Assembly (NCBI GenBank): GCA_009937625.1
Contig: JAACFA010000004.1
Location: 1-34,707 of the forward strand
Direction: 5' to 3'
From: Gammaproteobacteria bacterium
GTDB taxonomy: Bacteria > Pseudomonadota > Gammaproteobacteria > GCA-001735895
Length of the DNA: 34,707 nucleotides
Shown here: positions 3,254 to 25,784 of the stretch, piece by piece
Layout of the letters: every line of letters begins with the position of its first letter
Position numbering within the stretch: the stretch's first letter is position 1
Program-made: the position numbers and the translations under genes
The notes under the pieces: model-generated
Seen by the model: the letters and a program-made list of their open reading frames with translations, nothing else
Told to the model about the DNA's origin: nothing
Database searches by the model: none

Positions 3254-3267
3254 CCCGGGAGACCAAA

Positions 3268-4575
3268 ATGAGTCGATCTTCGTACCTCAAACCTGACACG
3301 GTGGCGCTGCATACCGGGTACGTGCCGGAGAGCGATCACGGTTCACGCGCGGTGCCAGTCTACCAGACCACGTCCTACGTATTCGAAAGCGTCAGCGACG
3401 GCTCGTCGTTGTTCAATGTCGAACAGGGTGGCCATATCTACAGCCGTATCACCAACCCCACGGTGGCGGTGCTGGAGCAGCGCATCGCCGCGCTCGAAGG
3501 CGGCAGTGGCGCGATTTGTACCGCGTCGGGCATGAGTGCACTGTTTACCGCCTTTATTACGCTGTGCTCGGCCGGCGATCACCTGATTTCGGCGACGCAA
3601 ATCTACGGCTCCACCGCGACCCTGCTGAAACACACCATCAAGCGCCTCGGTATCGAATGCAGTTTCATCCCGATCAATGACGAACAGGCGCTGCGCGACG
3701 CGATCCAGCCGAATACCAAGATGGTATTTTGCGAGTCGATCGGCAACCCGGGCCTGGAAATTGCCAATATCCCCGCAATCAGCGCGATCGCGCACGAAGC
3801 CGGGATACCGCTGGTGGTCGATGCGACCTTTGCGACGCCCACCCTGTGCCGACCGATCGATCACGGCGCCGATATCGTGGTTCACTCGGTGACCAAGTGG
3901 ATGGGTGGTCACGGTGTCGCAATCGGCGGTGCAATCGTCGACGGCGGACGCTTCGACTGGGCGCAGAGCGGCCGCTTCCCGGAGTTGACCGAGCCCTATG
4001 CGCCGTTCCACGGCATCCGCTTCTGGGAAGAGTTCGGGCCCTCGGCGCTGGCAATGAAAATGCGCGCCGAATCGATGCGCGACGTGGGCGCGGCTATGAG
4101 TCCGCACAACGCGTTTCTAATCCTGCAGGGGCTCGAAACCCTGAGCCTGCGCATGAAACAGCACGTTGCCAATGCCGCGCAGCTGCTCGCATGGCTGCAA
4201 CAGCAAGAGTCGGTAACCTGGACCAACTATCCCGACATGGAATCGAATCCCAGTCACGCGCTGGCGGCGACCCTGTTTCCGCAGGGCGCGGGGTCGATGC
4301 TGTGCTTCGGGGTGGTCGGCGGTCGCGCCGGCGGCGCGGCGTTCATCGATTCGCTGCAGCTGGCGTCCAACCTGGCCAACGTCGGGGACGCGCGCACGCT
4401 GGTGCTGCACCCCGCGAGCACGACGCATTCCCGGCTTACGGTCGACGATATGCAGGCAGCCGGTATCAGTGAAGACATGATCCGCGTCTCGGTCGGCATC
4501 GAGGATATCGCCGACATCAAGGCCGATTTCAAGCGCGGTTTCAAGGCCGCGCAGCGCGTCGCTGGAGCAGCCTGA
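3268..4575 (+). CDS. metY: O-acetylhomoserine (thiol)-lyase / Cys-Met metabolism PLP enzyme
   Basis: KPDTVALHTGY, QTTSYVFES, YSRITNPTVAVLEQRIAALEGG and PLP lysine motif VHSVTKWMGGHG. ORF track start is 3247, but ATG 3268 fits better. Confidence 0.85.
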   Translation: MSRSSYLKPDTVALHTGYVPESDHGSRAVPVYQTTSYVFESVSDGSSLFNVEQGGHIYSRITNPTVAVLEQRIAALEGGSGAICTASGMSALFTAFITLCSAGDHLISATQIYGSTATLLKHTIKRLGIECSFIPINDEQALRDAIQPNTKMVFCESIGNPGLEIANIPAISAIAHEAGIPLVVDATFATPTLCRPIDHGADIVVHSVTKWMGGHGVAIGGAIVDGGRFDWAQSGRFPELTEPYAPFHGIRFWEEFGPSALAMKMRAESMRDVGAAMSPHNAFLILQGLETLSLRMKQHVANAAQLLAWLQQQESVTWTNYPDMESNPSHALAATLFPQGAGSMLCFGVVGGRAGGAAFIDSLQLASNLANVGDARTLVLHPASTTHSRLTVDDMQAAGISEDMIRVSVGIEDIADIKADFKRGFKAAQRVAGAA

Positions 4576-9331: not shown

Positions 9332-9364
9332 AACCCAGGTTTGACCTTAGTTATTTTGCCTAAC

Positions 9365-10153
9365 ATGAATCAGGATATTTCACCCCTCGAACTGCGGCAC
9401 AGGATTCGCAGCGGCGCATTCACCAGCAACACTTCCGGTTATTCGCGTGGTTACGTGCAGGGCAATCTTTGCATTTTGCCAGCCGATTACGCCGGAGAAT
9501 TTCTGCAATTTTGTCAATCCAATCCGAAGCCCTGTCCGCTGATCGGGATGGCCACGAGCCCGGGTGACTACTACATTCCGAAACTCGGCGCGGATCTCGA
9601 CCTGCGCACCGATGTACCGAGCTACCGGGTGTTCGAAAACGGCGAATTGGTCGACGAAGTGCACGAGATCGGCGATCTCTGGCGCTCCGACCTGGTGTCG
9701 TTCGTACTCGGTTGCTCGTTTTCCTTCGAGGAGGCCCTGATCGACGACGGCCTGGAAATTCGCAACGTCACCGAGGGTGTCAACGTGCCGATGTATCGCA
9801 CCGATATCGACTGCAGTCCGGCGGGCCGCTTCGCCAGCAAGATGGTGGTCAGCATGCGCCCGATGATTCCGTCCGATGCGATTCGCGCGATTCAGATTTG
9901 CACCCGCTTCCCCGCGGTGCACGGCGCGCCGGTTCACTTCGGCGATCCCGCCCGGATCGGCGTGCGCGACATAAACCAGCCCGATTTCGGTGACGCCGTC
10001 ACCATTCGCGAGGACGAGGTGCCCGTGTTCTGGGCCTGCGGCGTGACGCCACAGGTTGCGGTCGAACAGGCCAGGCCGCCGTTTTGCATCACCCACTCGC
10101 CGGGCTGTATGCTGGTAACAGATCAGCCCAATAGTCACCTCGCGGTCATGTAG
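9365..10153 (+). CDS. DUF1445 (YcsI-like) protein; homologous to the N-terminal part of D-glutamate cyclase
   Basis: [41 protein letters not shown] and [13 protein letters not shown] are DUF1445 hallmarks; adjacent to pxpA. Confidence 0.85.
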
Positions 10154-10165
10154 CTGGAGGCAACC

Positions 10166-10897
10166 ATGTTAATGCTCAATTGCGACCTCGGTGAGAGCTA
10201 CGGCTCCTGGAAAATGGGACGTGACGACGAAGTCATGCCGCATATCGACCAGGCCAATATCGCCTGCGGGTTCCATGGCGGCGATCCGCTGGTGATGGAG
10301 CGTACCCTGGCGATGGCGAAGCAAAACAACGTCATGGTCGGGGCCCATCCTGCCTATCCCGATCTGGTCGGTTTTGGTCGTCGTCCGATGCACTGCTCGC
10401 CCGAGGAAATATCGGCGTTCATGCACTACCAAATCGCCGCCCTCGAAGGCATGGCCAAGATCCAGGGCCTGGAGCTCGCCTATGTAAAGCCTCACGGCGC
10501 GCTGTATAACGACATGATGGCGCGGGAATCGGTGCGCGCGCCGATTCTCAAAGCGATCGCCGATTTTCATAAACCGGTGCGGCTGATGCTACAGGCCACG
10601 CCCGAGGCCGATCTGCATCGCACCGAGGCCGCCTCCCATGGTATCGAGCTCTGGTTCGAGGCATTTGCCGATCGCTGCTACGACGACGACGGCAAGCTGC
10701 TGTCCCGTGCCAGGCCGGGTGCGGTGCACAACCGCGACAAGATGCTAGCCCAGGTCGAACAGATATGTCGTGAAGGCACGGTCACTTCGGTTAGCGGCCA
10801 TACCCTCGAATTGAGACCCGATACGCTATGCGTGCACGGTGATAACGACGAGGGCGTCGCGGCGATTAAAGAAATTCGCAAGATAATCCACTCCTGA
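10166..10897 (+). CDS. pxpA: 5-oxoprolinase subunit A (LamB/YcsF family)
   Basis: LNCDLGESYGSW, IDQANIACGFHGGDPLVMERT, VGAHPAYPDLVGFGRR, YVKPHGALYN. Confidence 0.93.
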   Translation: MLMLNCDLGESYGSWKMGRDDEVMPHIDQANIACGFHGGDPLVMERTLAMAKQNNVMVGAHPAYPDLVGFGRRPMHCSPEEISAFMHYQIAALEGMAKIQGLELAYVKPHGALYNDMMARESVRAPILKAIADFHKPVRLMLQATPEADLHRTEAASHGIELWFEAFADRCYDDDGKLLSRARPGAVHNRDKMLAQVEQICREGTVTSVSGHTLELRPDTLCVHGDNDEGVAAIKEIRKIIHS

Positions 10898-10904
10898 CAA
10901 CCCG

Positions 10905-11582
10905 ATGAAGATTGAAATCGCCGGGCAGAACGCATTTATCGTGTATTTTGCCGACCAGACCAGTGCGGCGATTTCCGCCCGAATCCAGGCGGCGGTGGCA
11001 AATATACTCGCGACGATGGGCGACAGCATTATCGACCTGGTACCGTCTTACGCGTCTCTGCTTGTCATCTTCGACCTCGATCGCAGCGACCATTTCGCGA
11101 TCAGAAAACAACTAGGCGCTGCGCTTACCGACCTCGATAACATCGACTCGAGCGCGGGCGAACTCGTCACGCTGCCGGTCTACTACGGCGTCGAATCGGG
11201 TCCCGACCTCGAGGGCATCGCCGAGCGTGCTGGCTTGAGTATCGAGCAGGTTATCGAAATCCACCAGCAGCAGGAGTACCGCGTCTACGCCATCGGTTTT
11301 GCTCCCGGGTTCGCGTATCTCGGCGAGGTCGACGAGCGCATAGCCGCGCCGCGGCTGGCGACTCCGCGGCAAAAGGTGCCACGCGGTGCGGTCGCCATCG
11401 CCGACCGTCAAACCGCCGTATACCCGGCGGTATCACCGGGTGGCTGGAACCTGATCGGGCTGTGCCCGACGCGTATGTTCGATCCTGACCGAACGCCCAG
11501 CATGCCGGTCAAGGTCGGCGACCGAATACGTTTCGAGGGCATTAGCCGCGACGAGTTTCTCGCCCAGGGCGGTGAATTATGA
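10905..11582 (+). CDS. pxpB: 5-oxoprolinase subunit B (KipI-like)
   Basis: VYAIGFAPGFAYLGEVDERIAAPRLATPRQKVPRGAVAIADRQTAVYP, SPGGWNLIG. Confidence 0.93.
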   Translation: MKIEIAGQNAFIVYFADQTSAAISARIQAAVANILATMGDSIIDLVPSYASLLVIFDLDRSDHFAIRKQLGAALTDLDNIDSSAGELVTLPVYYGVESGPDLEGIAERAGLSIEQVIEIHQQQEYRVYAIGFAPGFAYLGEVDERIAAPRLATPRQKVPRGAVAIADRQTAVYPAVSPGGWNLIGLCPTRMFDPDRTPSMPVKVGDRIRFEGISRDEFLAQGGEL

Positions 11583-12514
11583 GCGGCTTTATTGTCCAGC
11601 AGCCGGGATTGCTGAGCCTGCTGCTGGATCGCGGCCGCTACGGTGCTCATAACCTTGGCCTGACGACTGGTGGCCCCCTCGATTTCGTCGCCTTCGACTG
11701 GGCTAATCGCCTGCTGGGCAACGATGCCAACGCGACCTGTCTCGAGGTAGGCTTTGGCGGACTCTCGCTCGACGCTGAAATCGACAGCAGCTTCGTCATT
11801 ACCGGCGCCGAAGCTCCTTGCAAACTCAACGGTGATGCCATACCGCAGTGGCAGACGCTCGATATCCAGGCCGGCGACCGGCTCGAGATCGGCTTTGCCA
11901 CGAAGGGCACGCGCGCCTATCTGGCGGTTCGGGGTGGGTTCGACATAGCCCCGAGCTTTGGCAGCACCGCGACCGTGGTGCGTGAAAAAATCGGTGGCCT
12001 GCACGGCGATAAGCTACAGGCCGGTGATCGACTGCCCTGCAGCGGGGGCAGGATCGGCGACAAGCGTCGCCTGGCCGTGGCGGATCGGCCCGATTATGGT
12101 GAATTCGCCCGCCTGCGCGTGGTGCCCGGTTACCAGCAGGCCGTCTTCGGCCCGACGCAGCAGTGGCGCTTTTTCAACTCGGATTACCGCCTGACCGAAC
12201 GCTGCGATCGCATGGGTTTCCGCCTCGAAGGCGAAACCGTGCATTCGAACATGGTTGGTATGCTGTCCGAGGGCATATGCCATGGTGCGGTCCAGATTCC
12301 GGCCGACGGGCAACCGATCGTGCTGATGAACGATCGCCAGACCATTGGCGGCTATCCCAAGATAGGATCGGTGATCCCGCTCGATACTTCGAGACTGGCC
12401 CAGTTATCTCCGGGTTCGAGCGTGCGTTTCGAGGCAATCAGCATCGAGCAGGCGCACAACATTCACTGCCTCGAGCAGGCGCGTTTCCAACGCTGCAGCC
12501 TGCAGGCCTGTTGA
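11579..12514 (+). CDS. pxpC: 5-oxoprolinase subunit C (KipA-like)
   Basis: PGLLSLLLDRGRYGAHNLGLTTGGPLDFVAFDWANRLLGND, RAYLAVRGGFD; ATGA overlap with pxpB. Confidence 0.93.
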   Translation: MSGFIVQQPGLLSLLLDRGRYGAHNLGLTTGGPLDFVAFDWANRLLGNDANATCLEVGFGGLSLDAEIDSSFVITGAEAPCKLNGDAIPQWQTLDIQAGDRLEIGFATKGTRAYLAVRGGFDIAPSFGSTATVVREKIGGLHGDKLQAGDRLPCSGGRIGDKRRLAVADRPDYGEFARLRVVPGYQQAVFGPTQQWRFFNSDYRLTERCDRMGFRLEGETVHSNMVGMLSEGICHGAVQIPADGQPIVLMNDRQTIGGYPKIGSVIPLDTSRLAQLSPGSSVRFEAISIEQAHNIHCLEQARFQRCSLQAC

Positions 12515-12524
12515 GAGTAGAAGC

Positions 12525-13370
12525 ATGAACCAGGCCGCAGAACTGGCGCTTAGCCGCGTGATCGAAGATATCCTGGTGGCACGGAACCTGCGCGGCATGA
12601 AAACGCTGCAATCGCATCTCGAACCAGGCTATTGCCTGCGCGCGGCGCGGATACTGAACGATTGTCGCGGCAATATCCTGATCGGCACGGGCTTCCCGGT
12701 GGTCAAGACTTTCGAAACCGATGGGCCGGTCGGCGCCATCGCCATGTACGAAGCTTTCGAAAAACTCGGCGCTACCCCGACGATCGTCTGCGGGCGGCCA
12801 ATTTCGCAGGCGCTTGCCGAAAAATACCGGGTGCACGAAATCAGGGTTGGCGATCACGATCAGCGCGAGCAGGAAGCGCAGCAAGCGCTCGAACATTTCC
12901 AGCCAGAGGCGATCATATCGATCGAACGCCCCGGCCAGGCGGCCGACGGCGGCTACTACAACATGCGCGGCGAGAGTATCAGCGAACACACGGCCTGTTT
13001 CGATACCTTCATGACCGCGAGTCGATGCCCGACCATCGCTATCGGCGACGGCGGTAACGAAATCGGCATGGGCAAGGTTGCCGCGGCGCTGCAGGAGCTG
13101 AATATCGTACCGGCAACTACGAGTTGCGACGAGCTTATCGTCGCCGACGTTTCCAATTGGGGCGCCTACGGCATTATCTCGTTTCTGTCGCTGTGGACCG
13201 GGCGCGACCTGCTCGGCGAAATCGTGCCACTCGATACCCTGCGCTACATCTCCGAGCTCGGTAGCGTCGATGGCGTTACCCGCGTCAACCAGTTGACCGA
13301 GGACGGGCTCGACGCCAGCGAAGGTGAAAAGGTTTTACTCGAACTACGACAGGTTTGCGGCTTCACCTGA
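12525..13370 (+). CDS. DUF4392-type D-glutamate cyclase (C-terminal-half homolog)
   Basis: ILIGTGFPVVKTFETDGPVGAIAMYEAFEKLGATPTIV, SIERPGQAADGGYYNMRGESISEHT, IGDGGNEIGMGKV. Confidence 0.85.
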   Translation: MNQAAELALSRVIEDILVARNLRGMKTLQSHLEPGYCLRAARILNDCRGNILIGTGFPVVKTFETDGPVGAIAMYEAFEKLGATPTIVCGRPISQALAEKYRVHEIRVGDHDQREQEAQQALEHFQPEAIISIERPGQAADGGYYNMRGESISEHTACFDTFMTASRCPTIAIGDGGNEIGMGKVAAALQELNIVPATTSCDELIVADVSNWGAYGIISFLSLWTGRDLLGEIVPLDTLRYISELGSVDGVTRVNQLTEDGLDASEGEKVLLELRQVCGFT

Positions 13371-13500
13371 CGCCTATAGTTGCGGTCACTACCCTGCCCT
13401 GGCACCATTATTTCAATCGAGTGGCTCTATTCCGCCAAGTCGGGTTTCTGCTTAACTTGCGAGCCATTTTGAGTACTACCGAAACATCTGAGGCACTGGT

Positions 13501-14358
13501 ATGACGATTGCATATTTGAACGGTGAATTCCTGTCCCTGGAGGAAGCCCGCATATCGCCGATGGACCGAGGGTTCCTGTTTGGCGACGGCATATACGAAG
13601 TTATTCCCGCCTACGGTGGCAAAATGGTTGGCTTCGGACCGCATATATCACGGATGCGAGATGGCCTCGACGCGATCGAGATCAAGTTCGACTGGAGCGA
13701 TGAACAATGGCGTGACCTCTGCACCGCGCTGCTGGAAAAGAACGGCAACGGCAATCTCGGTATTTACCTGCACGTTACCCGTGGCGCCGACAGCAAACGA
13801 CATCACGCCTACCCCGAGGGCGTAGAGCCGACCCTGTTCGGCTATGCCTTCGAAATTCCCGCACCGCCGATACCGGACCGGGAGCACATCAAGCCCTACA
13901 CCTGCTCCACCGGTCGCGACATGCGCTGGGATCGCTGCAACATCAAGTCGATTTCGCTGCTCGGTAACGTCATGCATTTCCAGCAGGGCCATAGCAAGGG
14001 CGACGCCGAAATCCTGTTGTACAACGAACACGACGAACTCACCGAATGCGGTGCCTGCAACGCTTATGTCGTCAAGGACGGTATCGTCTCGACCCCACCG
14101 CTGGATCACCAGATTCTTCCCGGCATTACGCGCCACCTGCTACTCAGCGTGTTGCGTGCCGACGGCAGTATTCCGATCGAGGAACGCGTGATCACGATGG
14201 ATGAAGTCTGGGATGCCGACGAAATCTGGATCTCGAGCTCGAGCAAGGAAGTCGTCCCCGTGGTGAAGCTGGATGGCAAACCGGTCGGCGATGGCAACCC
14301 GGGCCCGGTCTGGGAAAAGGCCGCCAAACTCTACTCTGCCGGTAAATACGACTTTTAG
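13501..14358 (+). CDS. D-amino-acid transaminase (class IV aminotransferase)
   Basis: AYLNGEFLSLEEARISPMDRGFLFGDGIYEVIPAYGG, RWDRCNIKSISLLGNVM, DEIWISSSSKEVVPV. Confidence 0.9.
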   Translation: MTIAYLNGEFLSLEEARISPMDRGFLFGDGIYEVIPAYGGKMVGFGPHISRMRDGLDAIEIKFDWSDEQWRDLCTALLEKNGNGNLGIYLHVTRGADSKRHHAYPEGVEPTLFGYAFEIPAPPIPDREHIKPYTCSTGRDMRWDRCNIKSISLLGNVMHFQQGHSKGDAEILLYNEHDELTECGACNAYVVKDGIVSTPPLDHQILPGITRHLLLSVLRADGSIPIEERVITMDEVWDADEIWISSSSKEVVPVVKLDGKPVGDGNPGPVWEKAAKLYSAGKYDF

Positions 14359-14438: not shown

Positions 14439-15011
14439 CTAGCGGTAAATCGCCTGCTCGGTAACGATCATGTCGAGCCTGACGTCCCAATCCTGCGGCA
14501 CGATGCGTTCGACCCTCTGCAACTCGTGCGCTACCCCGATCAAAACCGGCTCTGCATTCGAGGGATCCTTGCGGAAGGCGAAGCTTCGATCGTAAAAGCC
14601 TCCTCCCATCCCGATCCGGTTGCAGTCGGCGTCGAATACCACCAGCGGCACCAGCACCAGTTCCAGCGCGTCGGGTGCCAGCATGTCTCCGGAATCGACG
14701 TCGGGTTCGGGCAGACGAAACTTGTTGCTGCGCATCTTTTGCCCATGAAAATACGGTGCAAAACGCAGCGCCTGTTGATCCAGGTTCGGCAGGAATACCT
14801 GTTTACCCTGGGAAAGGGCGTGCTCGATCACGGGGTCCAGCCCGATCTCGCCATTGACCGCAAAATAAGCAGCAATGCTGCGCGCCTGCCGATACTCGGA
14901 CAAGCCCAGCACACGCTGCGCCAGCGCGCTGGCGGCCTGCTCGAGCACGGCATCGTCGAGCGCGGCGCGCCGCGCGCGATTGCGTTGTCTCAATTCGTCG
15001 TGAGATTCCAT
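14439..15011 (-). CDS. 5-formyltetrahydrofolate cyclo-ligase
   Basis: LVPLVVFDADCNRIGMGGGFYDRSF and LRQRNRARRAALDD; ATG at MESHDEL. Confidence 0.92.
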   Translation of the reverse strand: MESHDELRQRNRARRAALDDAVLEQAASALAQRVLGLSEYRQARSIAAYFAVNGEIGLDPVIEHALSQGKQVFLPNLDQQALRFAPYFHGQKMRSNKFRLPEPDVDSGDMLAPDALELVLVPLVVFDADCNRIGMGGGFYDRSFAFRKDPSNAEPVLIGVAHELQRVERIVPQDWDVRLDMIVTEQAIYR

Positions 15012-15049
15012 GGACTGCTCCCGCCTGGCATTAGCCGCGCATGATACTG

Positions 15050-15931
15050 TCAATCAACCAGGCTGAGTAGCCATTCCTTGAACGCCAGCACCGCGGGATT
15101 TTTCAGGTGTGACTCCGGGCAAACCACGTAGTAGCTGAATTCGTTTTCGAGGATCACGTCAAAAGGCCTCACCAGCCTACCCGATTCGAGATGATCTTCG
15201 ACGAACGTTGTCGAACCCAGTGCGATCCCCTGCCCGTCGAGCGCGGCCTGGATCAGCACGTTGGTGTCATCGATGATCGTTCCCTTGTCGGCCTGGATGT
15301 CGTTCAATCCGGCAAGCTTGAGCCAGTCGCGCCAGCATTCGTAATTAGCGTCGTGCAGCAGGGTGTAATAGTGAAGGTTGTCGATGCTGGTCAAAGGCTT
15401 GTCGTTGCGCAGGAAAGCCGGCGAGCAGACCGGAAAAAAATCGAGACTCAAAAGCTTGTCAGCGACCACGCCCGACCAGGCACCCTTACCGTAGGTAACC
15501 GCGATGTCGATTTCTTCACGCTCGAAGTCCACCGCGGCGTGAGCGTGGAACAGGCACAGGTCGATTTCCGGATACTGCAGCCAGAAGTATTTCAGGCGCG
15601 GCGACAGCCACTTGGCGGCGAACGACGGCGCCAGGCGCACGCTGATTATGTTGGAGTAATGATCCTTGCTGAGCATGCCGATCGCGGCCGAAACCCGGTC
15701 GAAAGCCTCGATAACCTCGGGCAACAGGGCCTTACCCTGCTCGGTCAGGGCCAGGCGTCTCGGATAGCGTTCAAACAGTGAAACGCCCAGGTATTCCTCG
15801 ATAACCTTGATCTGATGACTTATCGCGGCCTGGGTCACGTTAAGCTCGCGCGCAGCACCGGTAAAACTTAACAGACGCCCGGCGGCCTCGAAGCACTTGA
15901 GACTGTTCAACGGCGGTAAACGGCGCCCCAT
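15050..15931 (-). CDS. LysR-family transcriptional regulator, GcvA-like
   Basis: LPPLNSLKCFEAAGRLLSFTGAARELNVTQAAISHQIKVIEEYLGVSLFERYPRRLALTEQG HTH; GcvA-type effector domain. Confidence 0.93.
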   Translation of the reverse strand: MGRRLPPLNSLKCFEAAGRLLSFTGAARELNVTQAAISHQIKVIEEYLGVSLFERYPRRLALTEQGKALLPEVIEAFDRVSAAIGMLSKDHYSNIISVRLAPSFAAKWLSPRLKYFWLQYPEIDLCLFHAHAAVDFEREEIDIAVTYGKGAWSGVVADKLLSLDFFPVCSPAFLRNDKPLTSIDNLHYYTLLHDANYECWRDWLKLAGLNDIQADKGTIIDDTNVLIQAALDGQGIALGSTTFVEDHLESGRLVRPFDVILENEFSYYVVCPESHLKNPAVLAFKEWLLSLVD

Positions 15932-15943
15932 CGTGATACACCT

Positions 15944-15994
15944 ATGGATTATTAAAACTAATGCATACTATAAAAAATAATAGTTTGAATCCAT
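15944..15994. promoter_or_regulatory. Imperfect long inverted repeat in the lysR/mttB-like divergent intergenic region (putative regulator operator)
   Basis: ATGGATT-att-AAAACTA ... TAGTTT-g-AATCCAT; ATTAAAACTA (15951-15960) versus TAGTTTGAAT (15981-15990) is 9/10 inverted. CTAAT at 15958-15962. Confidence 0.5.
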
Positions 15995-16064: not shown

Positions 16065-17612
16065 ATGGCAAGACGCTCCAACGCCCGTCAGGCTAAAATC
16101 GCGTTGCGCAAGGCCGCGCTCGCCGAAGACCTGAAACCGGTTCGCGCCGGCGAATCCGGCGGGCAGTACAAGCCGCTTTCCGAATCCGATATAGAGCAAA
16201 TAGATGCCACCGTTTATCGCATCCTCGAGGAAGTCGGCTTTGCCGATGCCAACGAGTACTGTATCGAAACCTGCCTTGCGGTCGGCGCCACCTATGGCGA
16301 GGACAAGCGCCTGCGCTTCCCGCGCTCGGTGGTCGAGGACGCGCTCAACAAGTGCCAGCGCGAACTGACCCTGTACGGACAGGATCCGAAACACGATCTG
16401 CAGTTAAAAGGCAGCCGGGTCCATTTCTCGACCGCCGGCGCCGCGGTCATGATTGCAGACCCCGAAAATAACGAGTACCGCGAATCGGGCGCGCAGGACC
16501 TGTATGACATGGCCCGCATCGCCGACCGGTGCGAGCACATCCACATGTTCCAGCGTACCTGCGTGTTGCGTGACATTACCGATAACAAGGCGATGGATAT
16601 CAACACCGCCTACAACGCGGTGATGGGCACGACCAAGCATATCGGCTCGAGCTGGACCGAGGCGCACCATCTCGAAGAGACGCTAAAGATGCTGCACCTG
16701 GTCGCCGGCGGCGAGGACAAGTGGCGCGAGCGGCCCTTCATGAGCATTTCCTGCTGCCACGTCGTGCCGCCGATGAAGTTTACCGACGAAGCGCTGAGCT
16801 GTATCAAGGTCGCGGTCGAGGGCGGGATGCCGGTATTGCTGCTATCTGCCGGACAATCCGGGGCCACGGCACCGGCCTGCCTCGCGGGTGCGGTCGCCCA
16901 GGCCTGGGCCGAGTGCCTCGGCGGCCTGGTCTACGTCAACGCGATCAAGCCGGGCGCCCCGGCGATTATCGGCACCTGGCCCTTCGTCTCGGACCTGCGT
17001 ACCGGTGCCATGAGCGGCGGCTCGCCCGAGCAGGCAATCCTGTCGTCGGCCTGCGCGCAAATGGGAAATTACTATAACCTGCCCACCGGCACCGCCTGCG
17101 GCATGACCGATTCCAAGTTCCCGGATTTCCAGGGTGGCGCCGAGCGCGCTTATACGCTGTCCTGCGCGGCGACCTCGGGCGCCAATATCATTTACGAATC
17201 GGCTGGCATGTACGCCAGCCTGCTCGGCACCTGCCCCGAATCGCTGTTGATCGACAACGACGTTCTGGGCGCCGCCCTGCGCATCACCCGCGGTATCGAG
17301 ATCAACGAGCAAACCCTGAGCTTCGACGTGCTGAAAGACGTCTGCCTCGGCAACAAGGGGCACTATCTCGGGTCCGGACAAACGCTCGAAGTCATGCAAA
17401 CCGAGTATATCTACCCAGAACTCGGCGACCGCCTGAGCCCCAACGAATGGGCGGAACAGGGTAAACCGGTGCTGCTGGACAAGGCCATCGCACGCAAGCG
17501 GGAAATACTCGCCAGCTATTTCCCGGATCACGTCAGCGACGAGGTCGACAAGCAGATTCGTGCACAGTTCGATATATTTCTGCCGCGTTCTGCCTTCGGC
17601 CGAAGCGATTAA
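16065..17612 (+). CDS. Trimethylamine methyltransferase (MttB) family protein, non-pyrrolysine
   Basis: 515 aa uninterrupted (no in-frame amber). IEQIDATVYRILEEVG, FSTAGAAVMIADPENNEYR, VLLLSAGQSGATAPACLAGAVAQAWAECLGGLVYVN, GGSPEQAILSSACAQMGNYYNLPTGTACGMTDSK are MttB-superfamily-like. Confidence 0.9.
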   Translation: MARRSNARQAKIALRKAALAEDLKPVRAGESGGQYKPLSESDIEQIDATVYRILEEVGFADANEYCIETCLAVGATYGEDKRLRFPRSVVEDALNKCQRELTLYGQDPKHDLQLKGSRVHFSTAGAAVMIADPENNEYRESGAQDLYDMARIADRCEHIHMFQRTCVLRDITDNKAMDINTAYNAVMGTTKHIGSSWTEAHHLEETLKMLHLVAGGEDKWRERPFMSISCCHVVPPMKFTDEALSCIKVAVEGGMPVLLLSAGQSGATAPACLAGAVAQAWAECLGGLVYVNAIKPGAPAIIGTWPFVSDLRTGAMSGGSPEQAILSSACAQMGNYYNLPTGTACGMTDSKFPDFQGGAERAYTLSCAATSGANIIYESAGMYASLLGTCPESLLIDNDVLGAALRITRGIEINEQTLSFDVLKDVCLGNKGHYLGSGQTLEVMQTEYIYPELGDRLSPNEWAEQGKPVLLDKAIARKREILASYFPDHVSDEVDKQIRAQFDIFLPRSAFGRSD

Positions 17613-17643
17613 ACCAAGTTATATTCAGTAACGGGATAAACAG

Positions 17644-20058
17644 ATGAAAAGTCACGCCAGAGTCGTAATTATCGGGGGCGGCTCACTCGGGGTAAACCTG
17701 CTCTACCACCTGACCAAAGAAGGCTGGAGCGACGTGGTGCTGGTCGAAAAAGGCGAACTGACCAGCGGCTCCACCTGGCACGCCGCCGGCCTGTGTTCGA
17801 ACTTCATCGGTAACCACACCGTCGCGCAAATCCACAACTACACGATCAAGCTCTACAACGAAATCCTGCCGCAGGAAACCGGCGAGAAATCGGTATTTCA
17901 CCAGACAGGAAGTATCCGCCAGGGTTTCACCCGGGTCGAAGAGGAATGGTTCAAGAACCTCGAAAGCCGCTCGAAAAATGTCGGCTTCGAGTTCAATATC
18001 ATCTCCAAAGAAGAAGCACAGAAGCTGAACCCGTTGATGAATTTCGACAAGGCGCGCGTGATCGCGAGCACGCCCAACGATGGCCACGTCGATCCGACCT
18101 CGGTGGTGATGCCACTGTCGAAGCTGGCGCGCGACAACGGCGCCGAAATTTACCGCAATACGCGCGTCACCGATATCAGCGAACAGCGCAACGGCGAATG
18201 GGAAGTCGTCACCGCCAAGGGCACGATCGTGGCCGAACACGTGGTCAACGCCGCCGGCTGTTTCGCGCGCGAGGTCGGCGCCATGGTCGGCGTCAACGTG
18301 CCGCTGATCAATCTCGAACACCAATACCTGGTGACCGAGAAGCATTCCGATATCGAGGCGCTGGACTTCGAACTGCCGGTCTGCCGTGACTCTTACAGTT
18401 CGGCCTATATCCGCCAGGAAGGCCTGGGCTTCCTGGTCGGGCCCTACGAAATGTGGGGTTCGCGTCCGTGGGCGCTGGACGGCATGGACTGGGCCTTCGA
18501 TCGCGAACTGTTCGAGCCTAACCTCGAAGTCCTGATGCCATTCCTGGAGCGTTGTTTCGAATTGACGCCGAAATTCGAGGAAGTCGGCGTCAAATCGGTC
18601 GTCAACGGCCCTATAACGCATACCCCCGACGATAACATCCTCGCCGGCCCGGTCGCCGGCCTGCGCAACTTCTGGAACCTGTGCGGTGCCAGCATCGGTA
18701 TCGCCCAGGGCGGCATCGGCAAGTACATGGCGCAGTGGATGAAATACGGCCAGACCGAGATCAACATGGCGCCGCTGGATACGCGCCGCTTCGGCGACTG
18801 GGCCGACAAGAAATACTGCACCATCCGGGCAATCGAATCGTACGAGGCGATGTACGCAGTCGGCGCGCCCAACGACAACCGCCCGCACGGTCGCCCGATG
18901 CGCAGCAGCCCGCTTTTTACCCGCCTGCTGCAGCACGGCGCGGTGCACGGCGCGGCGCAGGGCTACGAGAAGCCGCTCTGGTACCAGACCGACGCGGTGC
19001 GCAGCGAATCCCTGAGCTGGTCGCATAGCGAGGCGCACGCGGTGGTGGCCGAGGAATGCAGGGCGGTACAGGAATCTGCCGGTGTGATCGACATTTCCGG
19101 CGCCGCAAAGTATGAAGTCAGCGGGCCCGACGCGGCGGCCTTTCTCGACCGGCTATCGTGCAACAAGTTACCGCGGACCGGTCGTATCGGCCTGTCACTG
19201 TTCCATGCGCCGAATGGCGGCATCATGTGCGAGATGTCGATCACGCGGCTCGACGAAAACCGCTTCTACCTGGTGTCCGCGATCGGCTCCGAGCACAAGG
19301 ACCTGCACTGGATGCAGGCCAACGCCGATGACTTCGACGTCGACATCCTCAACCTCACCGAAGACGTTTCCTCGATGCTGATCACCGGCCCTAGATCGCG
19401 TGAAATCCTGCAGCAAATGACCGAGGAAGACCTGTCGAACGAAGCCTTTCCGTGGCTGTGCGCGCGCGAGGTTCAGATCGATAGCGCCATGGTACGCGTG
19501 CTCAGGGTTTCATATGCCGGTGAACTGGGATACGAACTGCATATGCCGTCTTACCAGCTGCTGTCGATCTACGACTCGATGTGGCGCCGGGGTGAACCTT
19601 TGGGGCTGCGCGACTTCGGCGGCTACGCCTTCAACTCGATGCGCATGGAGAAGATGTATCGCGCTTACGGCAACGAGTTTACCGAGGAAATCAGCGGCTT
19701 CGAAGCCGGCATGGGCCGTTTCATCGACACCAGCCGCGATTTCATCGGCTGTGAAAACCTGAAACAGCGCCAGCAGGCCGGTTACGCCATCGAACTCGCT
19801 TACCTGGTGTTCGACGACGATGTTGCCTGCGAGTGTTACGGCAACGAGGGCGTATATCACAACGGCGAGCTCATCGGGCTGACCACCGGCGGCGCCTACG
19901 GCCACAGGATCGGCAAGAGCACCGCCTTCGCCTACCTGAAACCCGCCATTATCGACGCCGGGCTCGAAGTGACGATCGATACCTCGGTCGGCAGCCGCAG
20001 GGCGCATATCGAAATGGACGCGGCCTACGATCCGGGCAACGAATTGCTGCGCAGCTAG
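17644..20058 (+). CDS. Dimethylglycine/sarcosine dehydrogenase-like FAD oxidoreductase with C-terminal GcvT domain
   Basis: VVIIGGGSLGVNLLYHLTKEGWSDVVLVEKGELTSGSTWHAAGL (Rossmann plus the WH motif of covalent-FAD DMGDH/SARDH); C-terminal GcvT (SGPDAAAFLDRLSCNKLP, SYAGELGYELHMP). Confidence 0.92.
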   Translation: MKSHARVVIIGGGSLGVNLLYHLTKEGWSDVVLVEKGELTSGSTWHAAGLCSNFIGNHTVAQIHNYTIKLYNEILPQETGEKSVFHQTGSIRQGFTRVEEEWFKNLESRSKNVGFEFNIISKEEAQKLNPLMNFDKARVIASTPNDGHVDPTSVVMPLSKLARDNGAEIYRNTRVTDISEQRNGEWEVVTAKGTIVAEHVVNAAGCFAREVGAMVGVNVPLINLEHQYLVTEKHSDIEALDFELPVCRDSYSSAYIRQEGLGFLVGPYEMWGSRPWALDGMDWAFDRELFEPNLEVLMPFLERCFELTPKFEEVGVKSVVNGPITHTPDDNILAGPVAGLRNFWNLCGASIGIAQGGIGKYMAQWMKYGQTEINMAPLDTRRFGDWADKKYCTIRAIESYEAMYAVGAPNDNRPHGRPMRSSPLFTRLLQHGAVHGAAQGYEKPLWYQTDAVRSESLSWSHSEAHAVVAEECRAVQESAGVIDISGAAKYEVSGPDAAAFLDRLSCNKLPRTGRIGLSLFHAPNGGIMCEMSITRLDENRFYLVSAIGSEHKDLHWMQANADDFDVDILNLTEDVSSMLITGPRSREILQQMTEEDLSNEAFPWLCAREVQIDSAMVRVLRVSYAGELGYELHMPSYQLLSIYDSMWRRGEPLGLRDFGGYAFNSMRMEKMYRAYGNEFTEEISGFEAGMGRFIDTSRDFIGCENLKQRQQAGYAIELAYLVFDDDVACECYGNEGVYHNGELIGLTTGGAYGHRIGKSTAFAYLKPAIIDAGLEVTIDTSVGSRRAHIEMDAAYDPGNELLRS

Positions 20059-20115
20059 GGCTTGCGCTACACTGCCCGATCATGGTTCGCAACCCGCCAA
20101 CAACCGGAGACTACG

Positions 20116-20703
20116 ATGCAACAAGTTGATTTCATCCGCATGGAAGATGGCACCCGCGAAGAGTACGAGTTTCTCGATCGCATGGAAGACGAGTACAAGG
20201 CCGGTTTGCCCGAGCGCATCATGCAGAGCATGCGCAAACTCGAACACAGCATCTCCGGTTACCGCATCAATCGCCTGCAGCACTGCCTGCAGGGTGCGAC
20301 CCGCGCCTACCGCGCCGGCGAATCGGACGAAATGATCGTTGCGGTGTTGCTGCACGATATCGGCGACGACCTGGCGCCATACTCGCACAGCGAAATGGCT
20401 GCCGCTATCCTGCGTCCCTTCGTTTCCGAGAAACTCTACTGGATCGTCAAGCATCACGGCGTGTTCCAGATGTATTACTACGCCCACCACTGTGGCGGCG
20501 ACCGCAATAGTCGTGAAATGTTCAAGGATAGCCCCTGGTACCAGGACGCGATCGATTTTTGCCACAACTACGATCAGAACTGCTTCGACCCGGACTACGA
20601 TTCGGAACCGCTGGAATTCTTCGAACCGATTCTGCGCCGGGTGCTGTCAAAGCCCCGGGGAGAAGATCCCGAGCAGGTAGCGCGCTACGGCAAAGCCGGT
20701 TAA
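20116..20703 (+). CDS. HD-domain protein, candidate HD-type mixed-valent diiron oxygenase (PhnZ/TmpB/MIOX-like)
   Basis: LQHCLQGATRAY-(15)-LLHDIGDDLAPYSHSEMAAAILRPF-(8)-VKHHGVFQMYYYAHH ... FCHNYDQNCFD; H56-x23-H80-D81 spacing and later His/Asp pattern resemble PhnZ. Confidence 0.75.
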   Translation: MQQVDFIRMEDGTREEYEFLDRMEDEYKAGLPERIMQSMRKLEHSISGYRINRLQHCLQGATRAYRAGESDEMIVAVLLHDIGDDLAPYSHSEMAAAILRPFVSEKLYWIVKHHGVFQMYYYAHHCGGDRNSREMFKDSPWYQDAIDFCHNYDQNCFDPDYDSEPLEFFEPILRRVLSKPRGEDPEQVARYGKAG

Positions 20704-20728: not shown

Positions 20729-23242
20729 TCAGGTCCTGATCGGCTTCGGCTTTTCGATATAGAAACCCTGGGCATAATCGAGGCCGATTTCGCGTAAGGC
20801 GCGCAGGGTAGCCTCGTTTTCGACGAACTCGGCGATGGTTTTCTTGCCCATGACGTGCCCGACATCGTTGATCGACTTGACCAGCTCGAAATTGATTCGG
20901 TCTTCGACCATATCGCGCACGAAGAAACCATCGATCTTCAGGTAATCGACGGGGAGCGTCTTCAGGTAAGCGAACGACGACAGGCCGCTGCCGAAATCGT
21001 CCAGCGCGAAAACGCAGCCGCGATCACGCAGTTGATTGATAAAATGATTCGCCTTGCTGAGGTTCTGGATCGCGGCGGTTTCGGTAATTTCGAGACAGAT
21101 TCGGTTCGGGTAGACCCTCTTTTCATCAATCACGTGAAGCATGAAACCTAGAAAGCCCTCGTCGGCGATCGACATGCCAGAAAGGTTGATGGTGCAGCGC
21201 ACTTCAGGGTCCGAGGCCATCCAGTCGAGCGTATTGTTGACGACCCAGGTATCGAGCTGGGTGGCGAGGTTGTAGCGTTCCGAGGTCGACAGAAAATTAG
21301 CGGGCAGCACCGGAAAACCGTCTTCGTCCAGCATGCGCACCAGCACCTCGCAGAAGTGTTCATGGCCGTCCTTTTCCGGGTTCAGCGACAGGATCGGTTG
21401 CTGGTACAGCACGAAGCGGTCCTCGTCGAAAGCGTGGTTGAGTTCGACGATACGCTGCATCTCCTGGTGTCGCTGGGCCACCTCGAAGCTATCTTCGCTG
21501 TAAACGTGGATACGGTTGCGACCCGCATCCTTGGCGGTATAACAGGCGGCATCGGCGGAGCGCATAACCTTGGCGATATTGCCGCTGCTGAAATTGATGG
21601 GAATCACGCCGATACTCGCCCCCAGGCGGAAATTCCGGCCGGCCCACATGAATCGGAAATTGTCGATTGCCTCGCGCACAGTCTCGGCTACCCGGTTCGC
21701 CTGGTTCATGCTGCAACGCTCGAGTAACAGTCCGAATTCGTCGCCACCGAGGCGCGCGATGGTATCACGCTTTCTAACCTTGTCCTCCAACAGCGCGCCT
21801 ATCTGGCGCAGCAGCTCGTCCCCGGCGTCGTGCCCGCAGGTGTCGTTGACCACCTTGAACTGGTCGAGATCGATATAACACAGGGCGTGCTCGCTATCGT
21901 TACTGCGGCAATCCTTGATCACGCGCGACAGGCGCAGCTCGAACTCGCGCCGATTCACCAATCCCGTCAACGGGTCGTGAGATGCCTGGTAATTGAGCTG
22001 TTGCGATAGACGGTAAGACTCGGTTATATCGATTCCGGTGCCGCGATAACCGGTAAAATTGCCGTCACCGTCGAATAGCGGTTTACCGCTAATACGTACC
22101 ACCACTTCGTAATCATCGGGCCGCGCATAGGTGTATTCGAAATTATGGAATGGCTCGCGGTTTTCCAGCCTGGCCGCCAGGCGCTTCCATTTCTCGGATT
22201 TAAAGTTATTGTTTTTGGCGATTTCCTCGCGAGTCTTGCCGATTACATTGTCGATCGCCAGCGAATCAGATCCCGGGTAATTGCCGGACAGGTAGGTGAA
22301 ACGCAGTGCCGCATCCTGCTCCCAGAACCAGTCTGCCCCCATTTCGGCAAAGTCGCGCAACCGTTCCTCGCTTTCCTTGAGCGCCCGTTCGGCCAGGCTT
22401 TGATCGGTAATGTCCCGCGCGTGCACGATGACGCTCGAATCCCGCCTCGGCTCGCAGTGCCGAATTTGCTGACGCGTCACTTCCAGCACTTTGATCGAAC
22501 CATTCTTGTGCTGGTAACGATAAATCCCGGATACCACGCGTTCAGGATGTTCCAGCACCTCGGCCATGGCCTGCTGGATGCGAACCCGGTCTTCCGGGAT
22601 CGCATGCTCGCCGGCCTGCCCCGGTTGCAGCTCGTCGACGCGATATCCCAGCAACTTCTCGACCGCGTTATTCATAAACTCGATCTCACCATCGGCGCTA
22701 ACGATGCAAACGATGTCCGTGACATGCTCGACGACATTGCGAAACCGGTTTTCGCTTTCGAGCAGTTGCTGCCGGGTGGTAACCGCTTGCGATATGTCGC
22801 TGCCGACGCCGCGGTATCCCATGAAAGCGCCGCTATCGGCAAAAAATGGCTTGCCGCGCGTGCGCAATACCCGGACTTCACCATCGGGGCGGCGCAGGGA
22901 CCAAACCATCGAATACTCGTCGCGCTGCAGCAGCGCTTCGCCCAGGCTGCTCCACTTGTCGAGGTCGTCGATGCGTCCCGCAAACGCCTCTTCACGGGTC
23001 TTGCCGATGACGTCGGCAACCGCTATGCCAGTAATTTTCTCGAATCTGCTGGACTGGTAAGTGAAGCGTAGATCGGCATCCATCTCCCAGAACCAGTCAG
23101 CGGCCAGAATCGCAACGTCGCTGAAACGCCCCAGCACCTGCTCGCTATCGAGGCTTCGCTGAGCGCTGGTCGCACCGGGGGAAACGTCTTGACTAGATTT
23201 CAGCTGCAGCGCGTCCTGCCTGGTTGCCGATTGGCTTTTCAT
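20729..23242 (-). CDS. PAS-PAS-PAS-GGDEF-EAL protein (diguanylate cyclase/phosphodiesterase)
   Basis: RKRDTIARLGGDEFGLLLER (GGDEF plus RxxD I-site), EVLVRM (EAL variant EVL), NLSGMSI, EITETAAI, FALDDFGSGLSSFAYLK. Confidence 0.93.
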   Translation of the reverse strand: MKSQSATRQDALQLKSSQDVSPGATSAQRSLDSEQVLGRFSDVAILAADWFWEMDADLRFTYQSSRFEKITGIAVADVIGKTREEAFAGRIDDLDKWSSLGEALLQRDEYSMVWSLRRPDGEVRVLRTRGKPFFADSGAFMGYRGVGSDISQAVTTRQQLLESENRFRNVVEHVTDIVCIVSADGEIEFMNNAVEKLLGYRVDELQPGQAGEHAIPEDRVRIQQAMAEVLEHPERVVSGIYRYQHKNGSIKVLEVTRQQIRHCEPRRDSSVIVHARDITDQSLAERALKESEERLRDFAEMGADWFWEQDAALRFTYLSGNYPGSDSLAIDNVIGKTREEIAKNNNFKSEKWKRLAARLENREPFHNFEYTYARPDDYEVVVRISGKPLFDGDGNFTGYRGTGIDITESYRLSQQLNYQASHDPLTGLVNRREFELRLSRVIKDCRSNDSEHALCYIDLDQFKVVNDTCGHDAGDELLRQIGALLEDKVRKRDTIARLGGDEFGLLLERCSMNQANRVAETVREAIDNFRFMWAGRNFRLGASIGVIPINFSSGNIAKVMRSADAACYTAKDAGRNRIHVYSEDSFEVAQRHQEMQRIVELNHAFDEDRFVLYQQPILSLNPEKDGHEHFCEVLVRMLDEDGFPVLPANFLSTSERYNLATQLDTWVVNNTLDWMASDPEVRCTINLSGMSIADEGFLGFMLHVIDEKRVYPNRICLEITETAAIQNLSKANHFINQLRDRGCVFALDDFGSGLSSFAYLKTLPVDYLKIDGFFVRDMVEDRINFELVKSINDVGHVMGKKTIAEFVENEATLRALREIGLDYAQGFYIEKPKPIRT

Positions 23243-23421: not shown

Positions 23422-24606
23422 ATGACAACACTCTCCGCCCAATTGAGCCATATCAGCAATCCCATGGTTAGCCGGCATTCGCCCTACCCCGACGAACTGA
23501 TCGAAATTGCCAGCCTAGAACAGGCCGCCACGGCCCGTAACGAGATTTCACGCTGGCCGGACTACCACGCGACCCCGCTTTATCGGCTCGACAGTATCGC
23601 CCGGCAAATTGGCGTCAGGGGAATCTTATACAAGGACGAGTCGCAACGGTTTCATTTGAAGAGCTTCAAGGCGCTCGGCGGTGCCTTCGCCGTTGCGCGC
23701 CAGCTGCAGCAGCGAATTCGGCAGGAAACGGGTAACTCGGCCTCGATCGAGGATTTGCTGCAGCGTCGTTACCCGGCAATCGTCGAAAATATCGTTATCA
23801 GTTGCGCCACCGACGGCAATCACGGGCGCTCGGTCGCCTGGGGTTGCCAGCTGTTCGGCTGCGGCTGCATCATTTATATCCACCGCGACGTGTCGGAGGG
23901 CCGCAAGCAGGCGATGGAGGCGTTCGGCGCCGAGGTGATTCGCATCGATGGTAACTACGACGCCTCGGTCAAGCAGGCCGACGCCGATGCGCAAGCCCAC
24001 GGGCGTATCATCGTCTCCGATACCAGCTACCCCGGGTACATGGATATTCCTCGCGATGTCGCGATTGGCTACACCGTGATGCTGGCCGAGGCGGTCGAAC
24101 AGATGCAGGGCGAGATCCCGACGCATGTTTTCATCCAGGCGGGCGTCGGCGGGCTGGCCGCCGCGGTTTGCGCCTACTTCTGGGAACTCTGGGGCGAGCG
24201 CCGGCCGCGCTTTGTCGTGGTCGAGCCGGAGCAGGCAAATTGCCTGCAGCAGTCAGCCGTATCGGGCAAGCCGGTGGCCGTCGAGGGCGATCTCGAAACC
24301 CTGATGGCCGGTCTTTCCTGCGGCGAGGTTTCGCTGCTGGCGTGGCAAGTTCTGCAAACGGGTGCCGACGACTTCATGACGCTGAGCGAAGACGCGGTCG
24401 CACCCTGCATGCGCCTGCTCGCCGCCAACGATCCGGCTATCGAGGCCGGTGAATCGGCGGTTGCCGGCCTGGGGGCCGCGATCGCTGCCCGCGAGGACCG
24501 GAAAATGGCGGCCACGCTGGGACTGGACGAGTCCAGCCTGGTCTTCGTGATCGGCACCGAGGGTGCAACCGATCCGGAACTGTATCAACAGCTGGTGGCG
24601 AGCTGA
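23422..24606 (+). CDS. dpaL: Diaminopropionate ammonia-lyase
   Basis: YHATPLYRLDSIARQIGVRGILYKDESQRFHLKSFKALGGAFAV, ATDGNHGRSVAWGCQLFGCGCIIYIH, IFVIGTEG-like C-terminus. Confidence 0.9.
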   Translation: MTTLSAQLSHISNPMVSRHSPYPDELIEIASLEQAATARNEISRWPDYHATPLYRLDSIARQIGVRGILYKDESQRFHLKSFKALGGAFAVARQLQQRIRQETGNSASIEDLLQRRYPAIVENIVISCATDGNHGRSVAWGCQLFGCGCIIYIHRDVSEGRKQAMEAFGAEVIRIDGNYDASVKQADADAQAHGRIIVSDTSYPGYMDIPRDVAIGYTVMLAEAVEQMQGEIPTHVFIQAGVGGLAAAVCAYFWELWGERRPRFVVVEPEQANCLQQSAVSGKPVAVEGDLETLMAGLSCGEVSLLAWQVLQTGADDFMTLSEDAVAPCMRLLAANDPAIEAGESAVAGLGAAIAAREDRKMAATLGLDESSLVFVIGTEGATDPELYQQLVAS

Positions 24607-25784
24607 TGCCCGCGCAGCAGCCCGAACGCGGGTTTCCGCAAACCGAGTACGAATCCAGGACCGAGAGCGCGCAACGTATGATGCGTGAACGACAACTCGA
24701 TGCCATGCTGCTCACCACCGAGCCGCATGTGCGGTATTTCAGCGGCTTCCTGACCCAGTTCTGGCAAAGCCCGACCCGGCCCTGGTTTTTGCTGCTGCCC
24801 GCGACCGGCAAACCGATAGCGGTGATACCAACCATCGGCGTTGCCGGCATGCGTCAAACCTGGATCGAGGATATCCGCAGCTGGGCCTCACCCCGGCCCG
24901 AGGACGATGGGATTTCGCTGCTGTTGTCGACCATCAGGGAGCTCCCGGCGCGCTTCGGGCGCATCGGGCTGACGCTCGGCGCCGAAAGCTATTTGCGCAT
25001 GCCGGCCCGTGATTACCGGCGGCTGGAGGACGAGCTGTCGACGCTGGAACTGATCGACTGCGCCGCGCTGATGCTGAAGCTCTGCAGCGTGAAGTCTGCG
25101 GCCGAAATCGAAAAGATAAGATACGTCTGCGAACTGGCGTCGGACAGCTTCAATGCCCTGCCCGGTTTCGCACGGCGGGGCCAGAGCGAACGCGAAATCG
25201 TACAGGCATTGCGCATCGACCTGCTGCAGCGTGGCGCCGACCATGTGCCATATATCGTCTCGGCCTCGGGCAACGGCGGATACGGCGATATCATCATGGG
25301 CCCCGGCGATCGCAAACTGGAAGACGGAGACGTCCTGATTATCGATACCGGCAGCGTATACGACGGCTATTATTGCGATTTCGATCGCAACTATGCTTTT
25401 GGTCACGCGCCTGATAACGCCCGGCGGGCATACGAAACCGTGTATCGCAGCACCGATGCCGGACTGGCAGCGGCCCGACCGGGCGCCACCACGACCGACC
25501 TGTGGCAGGCGATGTGGTCGGTACTCGAAGCCGGCGGCGCAACCAGCAACGATGTCGGCCGCATGGGCCACGGCCTGGGCGCACAGCTCACCGAATGGCC
25601 CTCGATTACCGCCAGCGATAACAACCCGCTGGAGCCCGGGATGGTGATAACGCTCGAACCCGGCATGGACTGCGGCGAAAACAAGATGATGGTGCACGAG
25701 GAAAACATTGTCATCACCGAATCGGGCGCAAAACTTCTGAGCAAGCGCGCCGCCGCCGAACTGCCGATCGTCGAGCCAGTCTAA
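24606..25784 (+). CDS. M24 family metallopeptidase / creatinase-like (Xaa-Pro peptidase-type)
   Basis: Five metal ligands visible: IIDTGS (D), CDFDRNYA (D), GHGLGAQLTEWPS (H), ITLEPGM (E), VHEENIVITE (E). Confidence 0.9.
   Translation: MPAQQPERGFPQTEYESRTESAQRMMRERQLDAMLLTTEPHVRYFSGFLTQFWQSPTRPWFLLLPATGKPIAVIPTIGVAGMRQTWIEDIRSWASPRPEDDGISLLLSTIRELPARFGRIGLTLGAESYLRMPARDYRRLEDELSTLELIDCAALMLKLCSVKSAAEIEKIRYVCELASDSFNALPGFARRGQSEREIVQALRIDLLQRGADHVPYIVSASGNGGYGDIIMGPGDRKLEDGDVLIIDTGSVYDGYYCDFDRNYAFGHAPDNARRAYETVYRSTDAGLAAARPGATTTDLWQAMWSVLEAGGATSNDVGRMGHGLGAQLTEWPSITASDNNPLEPGMVITLEPGMDCGENKMMVHEENIVITESGAKLLSKRAAAELPIVEPV

Follow-up and report, generated by a model that had tools for sequence, protein, structure and literature searches.

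The aerobic demethylation of glycine betaine was described in 2025 in Ruegeria pomeroyi, where it is carried out by MtgBCD; the set comprises a PF06253 methyltransferase, MtgC, MtgD, MetF2, DUF1638 and a RamA-type reactivase, and is followed by further demethylation (PMC12478193). In dimethylglycine dehydrogenase (DMGDH) the FAD is covalently attached to a histidine, His91 (PMC5082570). A 2020 review lists only three oxygenases among the HD-domain proteins, namely MIOX, PhnZ and TmpB, and the last two have a YxxE loop, missing from MIOX, that serves both to gate the iron and to bind the amine (PMC8177086). The locus analysed here lies in a window of 34,707 nucleotides, this being the whole stretch of gammaproteobacterial DNA that was analysed, and its features are the following:

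14439..15053, minus strand: 5-formyltetrahydrofolate cyclo-ligase (TIGR02727, 156 bits, over the cut-off)
15050..15931, minus strand: GcvA-type LysR regulator, divergent from the trio (NCBIfam PRK11139, 339.5 bits against a cut-off of 288)
15948..15992, no strand: conserved regulatory element in the gcvA-mttB spacer (alignment of 10 intergenic regions)
16065..17612, plus strand: MttB-superfamily (non-pyrrolysine) corrinoid methyltransferase, 515 aa (PF06253, 364 bits)
17644..20058, plus strand: DMGDH-like FAD/folate oxidoreductase with GcvT domains, 804 aa (DAO, FAO_M, GCV_T and GCV_T_C)
20116..20703, plus strand: HD-domain protein, candidate diiron oxygenase, 195 aa (HD PF01966, 28 bits)

The trio MttB-DMGDH-HD thus occupies 16065-20703 of the plus strand, with 31 bp between the first two genes and 57 bp between the last two, and for the HD gene the ATG at 20116 is preferred over the TTG at 20062 of the mechanical ORF. 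The MttB-like protein scores 364.5 bits against a curated PF06253 cut-off of 25, and its frame is open over the 515 aa, with no internal stop and no amber (pyrrolysine) codon. Its best solved relative is the glycine betaine methyltransferase MtgB (9yce, 219 bits). The DMGDH-like protein aligns over its full length to human DMGDH (5l46, 568 bits), and it has both the architecture of the family and the histidine that attaches the FAD, kept in the motif STWHAAG. It resembles the mammalian enzyme in homology, domain order and this histidine, and differs from it in being a member of a bacterial operon with a regulator and an HD partner; dimethylglycine is a candidate substrate here.

The same genome harbors on another contig (C193) a module that includes MtgC/CorrP, DUF1638, DUF5981, MetF2/MTHFR, the pterin-binding methyltransferase MtgD, RACo and an MtgB-like protein, that is, homologues of the Ruegeria Mtg set. 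The genes run in the order mtgC-DUF1638-DUF5981-metF2-mtgD-RACo, accompanied by the MtgB-like gene, and mtgC is cut off by the contig edge (L166); AraC-type regulators resembling GbdR are found in this locus as well. The corrinoid protein, the tetrahydrofolate methyltransferase and the reactivase for an MttB-type enzyme are available in trans. The MttB on C193, with 763 bits to PF06253 against 364, is a much stronger MtgB candidate, whereas the MttB of the window is a separate, low-scoring paralogue that stands away from mtgCD, together with DMGDH and HD and beside a GcvA-type regulator. Several other MttB and DMGDH-like paralogues are encoded in the genome (contigs C253, C55, C51, C275, C152 and C116 of G000), with a further MttB-DMGDH pair, lacking HD, on C253, and this multiplicity argues against fixing a substrate for the pair in the window from homology.

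The first-pass annotation had described the trio as three tightly spaced genes on one strand, divergent from a GcvA-type gene and close to a 5-formyltetrahydrofolate cyclo-ligase, and this description stands, with profile matches over the cut-offs for MttB, GcvA and the cyclo-ligase. It had also proposed the conservation of the neighborhood as a check, and the gene order does recur, since at least 13 other contigs from gammaproteobacterial metagenome-assembled genomes or symbionts carry a collinear MttB-DMGDH-HD with a divergent gcvA (L039, L041, L044-L051, L057, L059 and L062), L049 being from the Olavius algarvensis Gamma 3 endosymbiont. Compared with six relatives, each of the three genes shows a pN/pS of 0.05-0.24, which indicates purifying selection. 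Variant arrangements with the same MttB group are also found: MttB-HD without DMGDH (L081 and L126), MttB and HD convergent (L113), and MttB and HD divergent around GcvA (L075 and L082, the latter also with a 2-oxoglutarate (2OG) oxygenase). In two other loci an additional DMGDH is inserted in the trio (L053 and L054).

The position of gcvA next to the trio is kept in relatives, and the cyclo-ligase gene, which comes immediately after gcvA in the same orientation, is kept beside it in window-type loci. Within the conserved element of the spacer, positions 15948-15962 match ATTA-n7-TAAT containing CTAAT, the published GcvA motif (PMC5002191, PMC3658693), in what is its sole copy in the window. 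A GcvA-like operator is accordingly predicted between gcvA and the trio, through which GcvA may regulate the latter. GcvA of Escherichia coli responds to glycine, and control of this type would be consistent with glycine as the end product.

In the same window a DMSP demethylase gene, dmdA (2153-3253, plus strand; 464.6 bits against a cut-off of 410), together with the O-acetylhomoserine sulfhydrylase-family gene downstream of it (3247-4575), forms a second locus for the demethylation of a methylated osmolyte. A D-glutamate/5-oxoproline cluster (9341-14358, plus strand) contains two D-glutamate cyclase genes, LamB/YcsF, the carboxyltransferase domains CT_C_D and CT_A_B (5-oxoprolinase-like) and a D-amino-acid transaminase-like gene, and parts of it are kept beside the trio in relatives. 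A diaminopropionate ammonia-lyase gene and an M24 peptidase/ectoine-hydrolase-like gene (23422-25784, plus strand) trail the trio in relatives too. Between these and the trio lies a large signalling-type gene (20729-23242, minus strand; GGDEF/EAL by reading), which is found in some genomes and missing from others (L044, L045).

The genome collection contains 496 relatives of the HD protein, and its subfamily occurs in 59 of 399 Pseudomonadota genomes, including those of abundant marine groups such as SUP05. In a tree of representative sequences of the family, the HD protein of the window falls in a clade of 24 members (support 0.987), whose members come from MttB-DMGDH, soxBDAG and 2OG oxygenase (with or without Mtg) loci; in SUP05-type genomes the HD gene is preceded by soxBDAG. 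In many relatives the HD gene is directly adjoined by an Fe/2OG oxygenase gene, of the GBBH/TmpA-like type in Arenicella, Cocleimonas and others, and of the PhyH type in still others. Genomes were also drawn evenly, and of the 66 HD loci that they yielded, 16 have such an oxygenase within 3 kb of HD. The inner 41% of sequence contains 18 of the 21 matches (p 3e-5), an enrichment that is somewhat inflated because HD-adjacent genes contributed in part to the profiles. No 2OG oxygenase was found beside the trio of the window, and among the TauD-family matches of its genome the single GBBH-like one belongs to a TmpA-TmpB pair. Assignment of the 2OG partners as GBBH, TMLD or TmpA by the NCBIfam models was attempted, and since most of them score under all the cut-offs, no substrate was called; two HD-adjacent oxygenases (L269 and L130) narrowly exceed the TmpA cut-off. 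The HD-associated GBBH-like oxygenases have a serine in place of an asparagine found in both TmpA and GBBH, which we take to be N292 in GBBH numbering, and this replacement hints at another substrate. Carnitine dehydrogenase genes neighbor HD in L243 and L269, both from the phylum sample. The HD gene is also found in loci without N-methyl genes, among them many of the phylum sample and those of Acidiferrobacteraceae, in which HD lies between coaD-like and rsmD-like genes (L094-L112). A CoxL/xanthine-dehydrogenase-like gene, as read from the sequence, is next to or near HD in L252, L251 and L242, the first of which also contains a PhyH gene.

At the level of whole genomes, HD was found in 28 of 369 genomes of the class and MttB in 22, both being present in 15 against 1.7 expected (p 3e-14), while DMGDH was found in 31, together with HD in 19 (p 2e-17). 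When the genomes are collapsed to families, of which about 180 are assumed, the association holds for HD-MttB (p 2e-6) and HD-DMGDH (p 4e-10). DUF1638, a marker of the Mtg system, is present in 15 of the 28 HD genomes, and in six of the seven SUP05-type genomes with HD. A single locus (L143) gathers Sox subunits, DMGDH, HD, a 2OG oxygenase, RACo, MtgD, MetF2, DUF5981, DUF1638, MtgC and MtgB. Beside HD, family-wide, MttB and DMGDH are not enriched above background in the evenly drawn loci (ratios 1.1-1.3), so that their link to HD is strong only in the clade of the window and in genome co-occurrence. Because of the loci without N-methyl genes, and of the nine of 28 HD genomes without DMGDH, the family may have several substrates or more than one role.

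The fold of the HD protein was modelled with AlphaFold2 (pLDDT 89, pTM 0.86). A Foldseek search of the PDB returned only PhnZ and TmpB under an E value of 1e-4 (probability 1.0, E 4.5e-6 to 5.6e-5), to both of which the sequence matches are weak, and MIOX came next (E 0.05); MIOX shares the HD-domain diiron fold and the lack of a YxxE loop, and it differs in being longer and in this weak fold match. The six diiron ligands, H56, H80, D81, H91, H114 and D153, are kept in 106-107 of 107 family members and, at the same positions, in 19 TmpB/PhnZ-type sequences. The modelled fold and the ligand set suggest that the protein may well act as an HD-type diiron oxygenase, its use of iron and O2 being what we infer from them. 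It could instead be a metal-dependent phosphohydrolase that serves housekeeping or signalling and is in the operon by coincidence, given that hydrolases make up most of the known HD-domain proteins (PMC8177086) and that some lineages carry HD among housekeeping genes such as coaD and rsmD. We consider this unlikely: the hydrolases of the PDB rank far under PhnZ and TmpB in the fold search, the six-residue dinuclear ligand set is invariant, and HD is recurrently paired with 2OG oxygenases and N-methyl loci.

The reading with an oxygenase is the one to which we give a slight preference overall, namely that in marine aerobic gammaproteobacteria the trio forms an operon under GcvA control that degrades a trimethylammonium (betaine-type) compound, and in which the HD oxygenase, of a subfamily distinct from PhnZ, TmpB and MIOX, would supply the betaine. 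The gene identities, their conservation and co-occurrence, the ligand set, the fold and the partner genes of relatives are computed; the demethylation part, which draws on strong homology and co-occurrence, remains a prediction, and the HD chemistry, its substrate, the bond cleaved and the order of steps are proposed on this basis. The HD protein would cleave a hydroxylated precursor with O2, at a C-C or C-N rather than a C-P bond, to give the betaine for MttB and DMGDH, and in relatives its pairing with a 2OG oxygenase would follow the scheme of PhnY/PhnZ and TmpA/TmpB, “hydroxylate, then cleave with O2”. The MttB-like enzyme would then transfer one N-methyl group to a corrinoid protein, from which the MtgC/MtgD system on C193 would pass it to tetrahydrofolate for oxidation, a route that appears available, as the genes for MtgC, MtgD, MetF2, DUF1638 and RACo-type proteins lie on that contig. 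The DMGDH-like flavoenzyme would convert the next N-methyl group into 5,10-methylene-tetrahydrofolate, so that two N-methyl groups of a betaine would enter the folate pool. As there is no 2OG partner beside the trio, the hydroxylated substrate in the lineage of the window is perhaps made elsewhere or imported. The stepwise dismantling of an N-methylated compound, as initially proposed for these genes, holds insofar as they form an N-methyl operon tied to folate one-carbon metabolism and include an HD protein of the diiron-oxygenase type. On their own the three genes probably fall short of a complete pathway, since in relatives HD often comes with a 2OG oxygenase that is absent here.

The initial proposal had also placed the HD protein as a late step. 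In such an order it would act after demethylation and split the demethylated amine, or a one-carbon adduct, by oxidation. Its gene is indeed the last of the trio and comes after soxBDAG in SUP05-type genomes, and still we hold this order to be quite improbable, as the pair of HD and 2OG oxygenase, where present, resembles a precursor-forming module, and as Mtg, DMGDH and Sox already convert betaine to glycine (L143; PMC12478193); HD more probably supplies the betaine.

The residues around the metal site separate the HD protein from its nearest structural relatives. Instead of the YxxE loop the family has an LxGY-type one, in which the position of Y46 is mostly L, I or F and that of E49 is Y in 96 of 107 members; H84 is changed to D (HDxGH to HDxGD), K118 to Q and S127 to G, and R150, the arginine ahead of the last ligand, is not conserved. 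YxxE, K118, H84, S127 and R150 are all fixed in the 19 TmpB/PhnZ-type sequences, and in PhnZ the phosphonate is presumably contacted by these H, K, S and R residues. The NCBIfam TmpB model NF049941 gives the HD protein 37.7 bits, below its cut-off of 300, and a separate TmpA-TmpB pair is encoded in the same genome on contig C261 (L153, 8461-10195), whose TmpA passes the NCBIfam cut-offs of both TmpA and GBBH. As judged from the replaced residues and from the existence of this pair, the HD protein is a member of a subfamily distinct from PhnZ/TmpB, and not a TmpB; a phosphonate identity was accordingly set aside. Of the three bond types first suggested for the cleavage, C-P is thus unlikely, while the assignment to the diiron-oxygenase type is kept on the strength of fold and ligands. 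It is very unlikely, in view of that score, of the altered residues and of the pair on C261, that the protein is a TmpB-like enzyme turning hydroxylated trimethylaminoethylphosphonate into glycine betaine for MttB and DMGDH, even though TmpB and PhnZ are its nearest families, GBBH/TmpA-like oxygenases adjoin HD in relatives (two of them just passing the TmpA cut-off), and such a product would suit both demethylating enzymes.

In the preferred reading, in which the HD oxygenase supplies a betaine, the resemblance to TmpA/TmpB and PhnY/PhnZ consists of the pairing with a 2OG oxygenase in relatives, the same fold and the six metal ligands, whereas the window protein lacks an adjacent 2OG gene as well as the YxxE loop and the other fixed residues, and the informative HD loci are of the betaine or carnitine type. 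The enzyme classes and the aerobic Mtg route are already known, so the earlier statement that no such pathway had been described needs correction with regard to MttB-type betaine demethylation; it stands for the trio and for the HD subfamily, no account of which, nor of an HD protein in betaine loci, was found in the open-access literature, and it is the HD protein and its subfamily that are apparently new. More tentatively, and as a possibility about which we have more doubt than conviction, the family could be a new functional class that, together with GBBH-like or PhyH partners, acts on hydroxylated quaternary amines, for instance trimethyllysine- or carnitine-like ones, by breaking their C-C or C-N bonds, and feeds betaine and one-carbon metabolism in many Pseudomonadota, including SUP05. 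The HD subfamily is common, and no reaction assigned to it was found in the open-access literature; if it is an oxygenase of quaternary-amine catabolism, it would provide an O2-dependent entry to the marine cycling of methylated nitrogen and one-carbon units.
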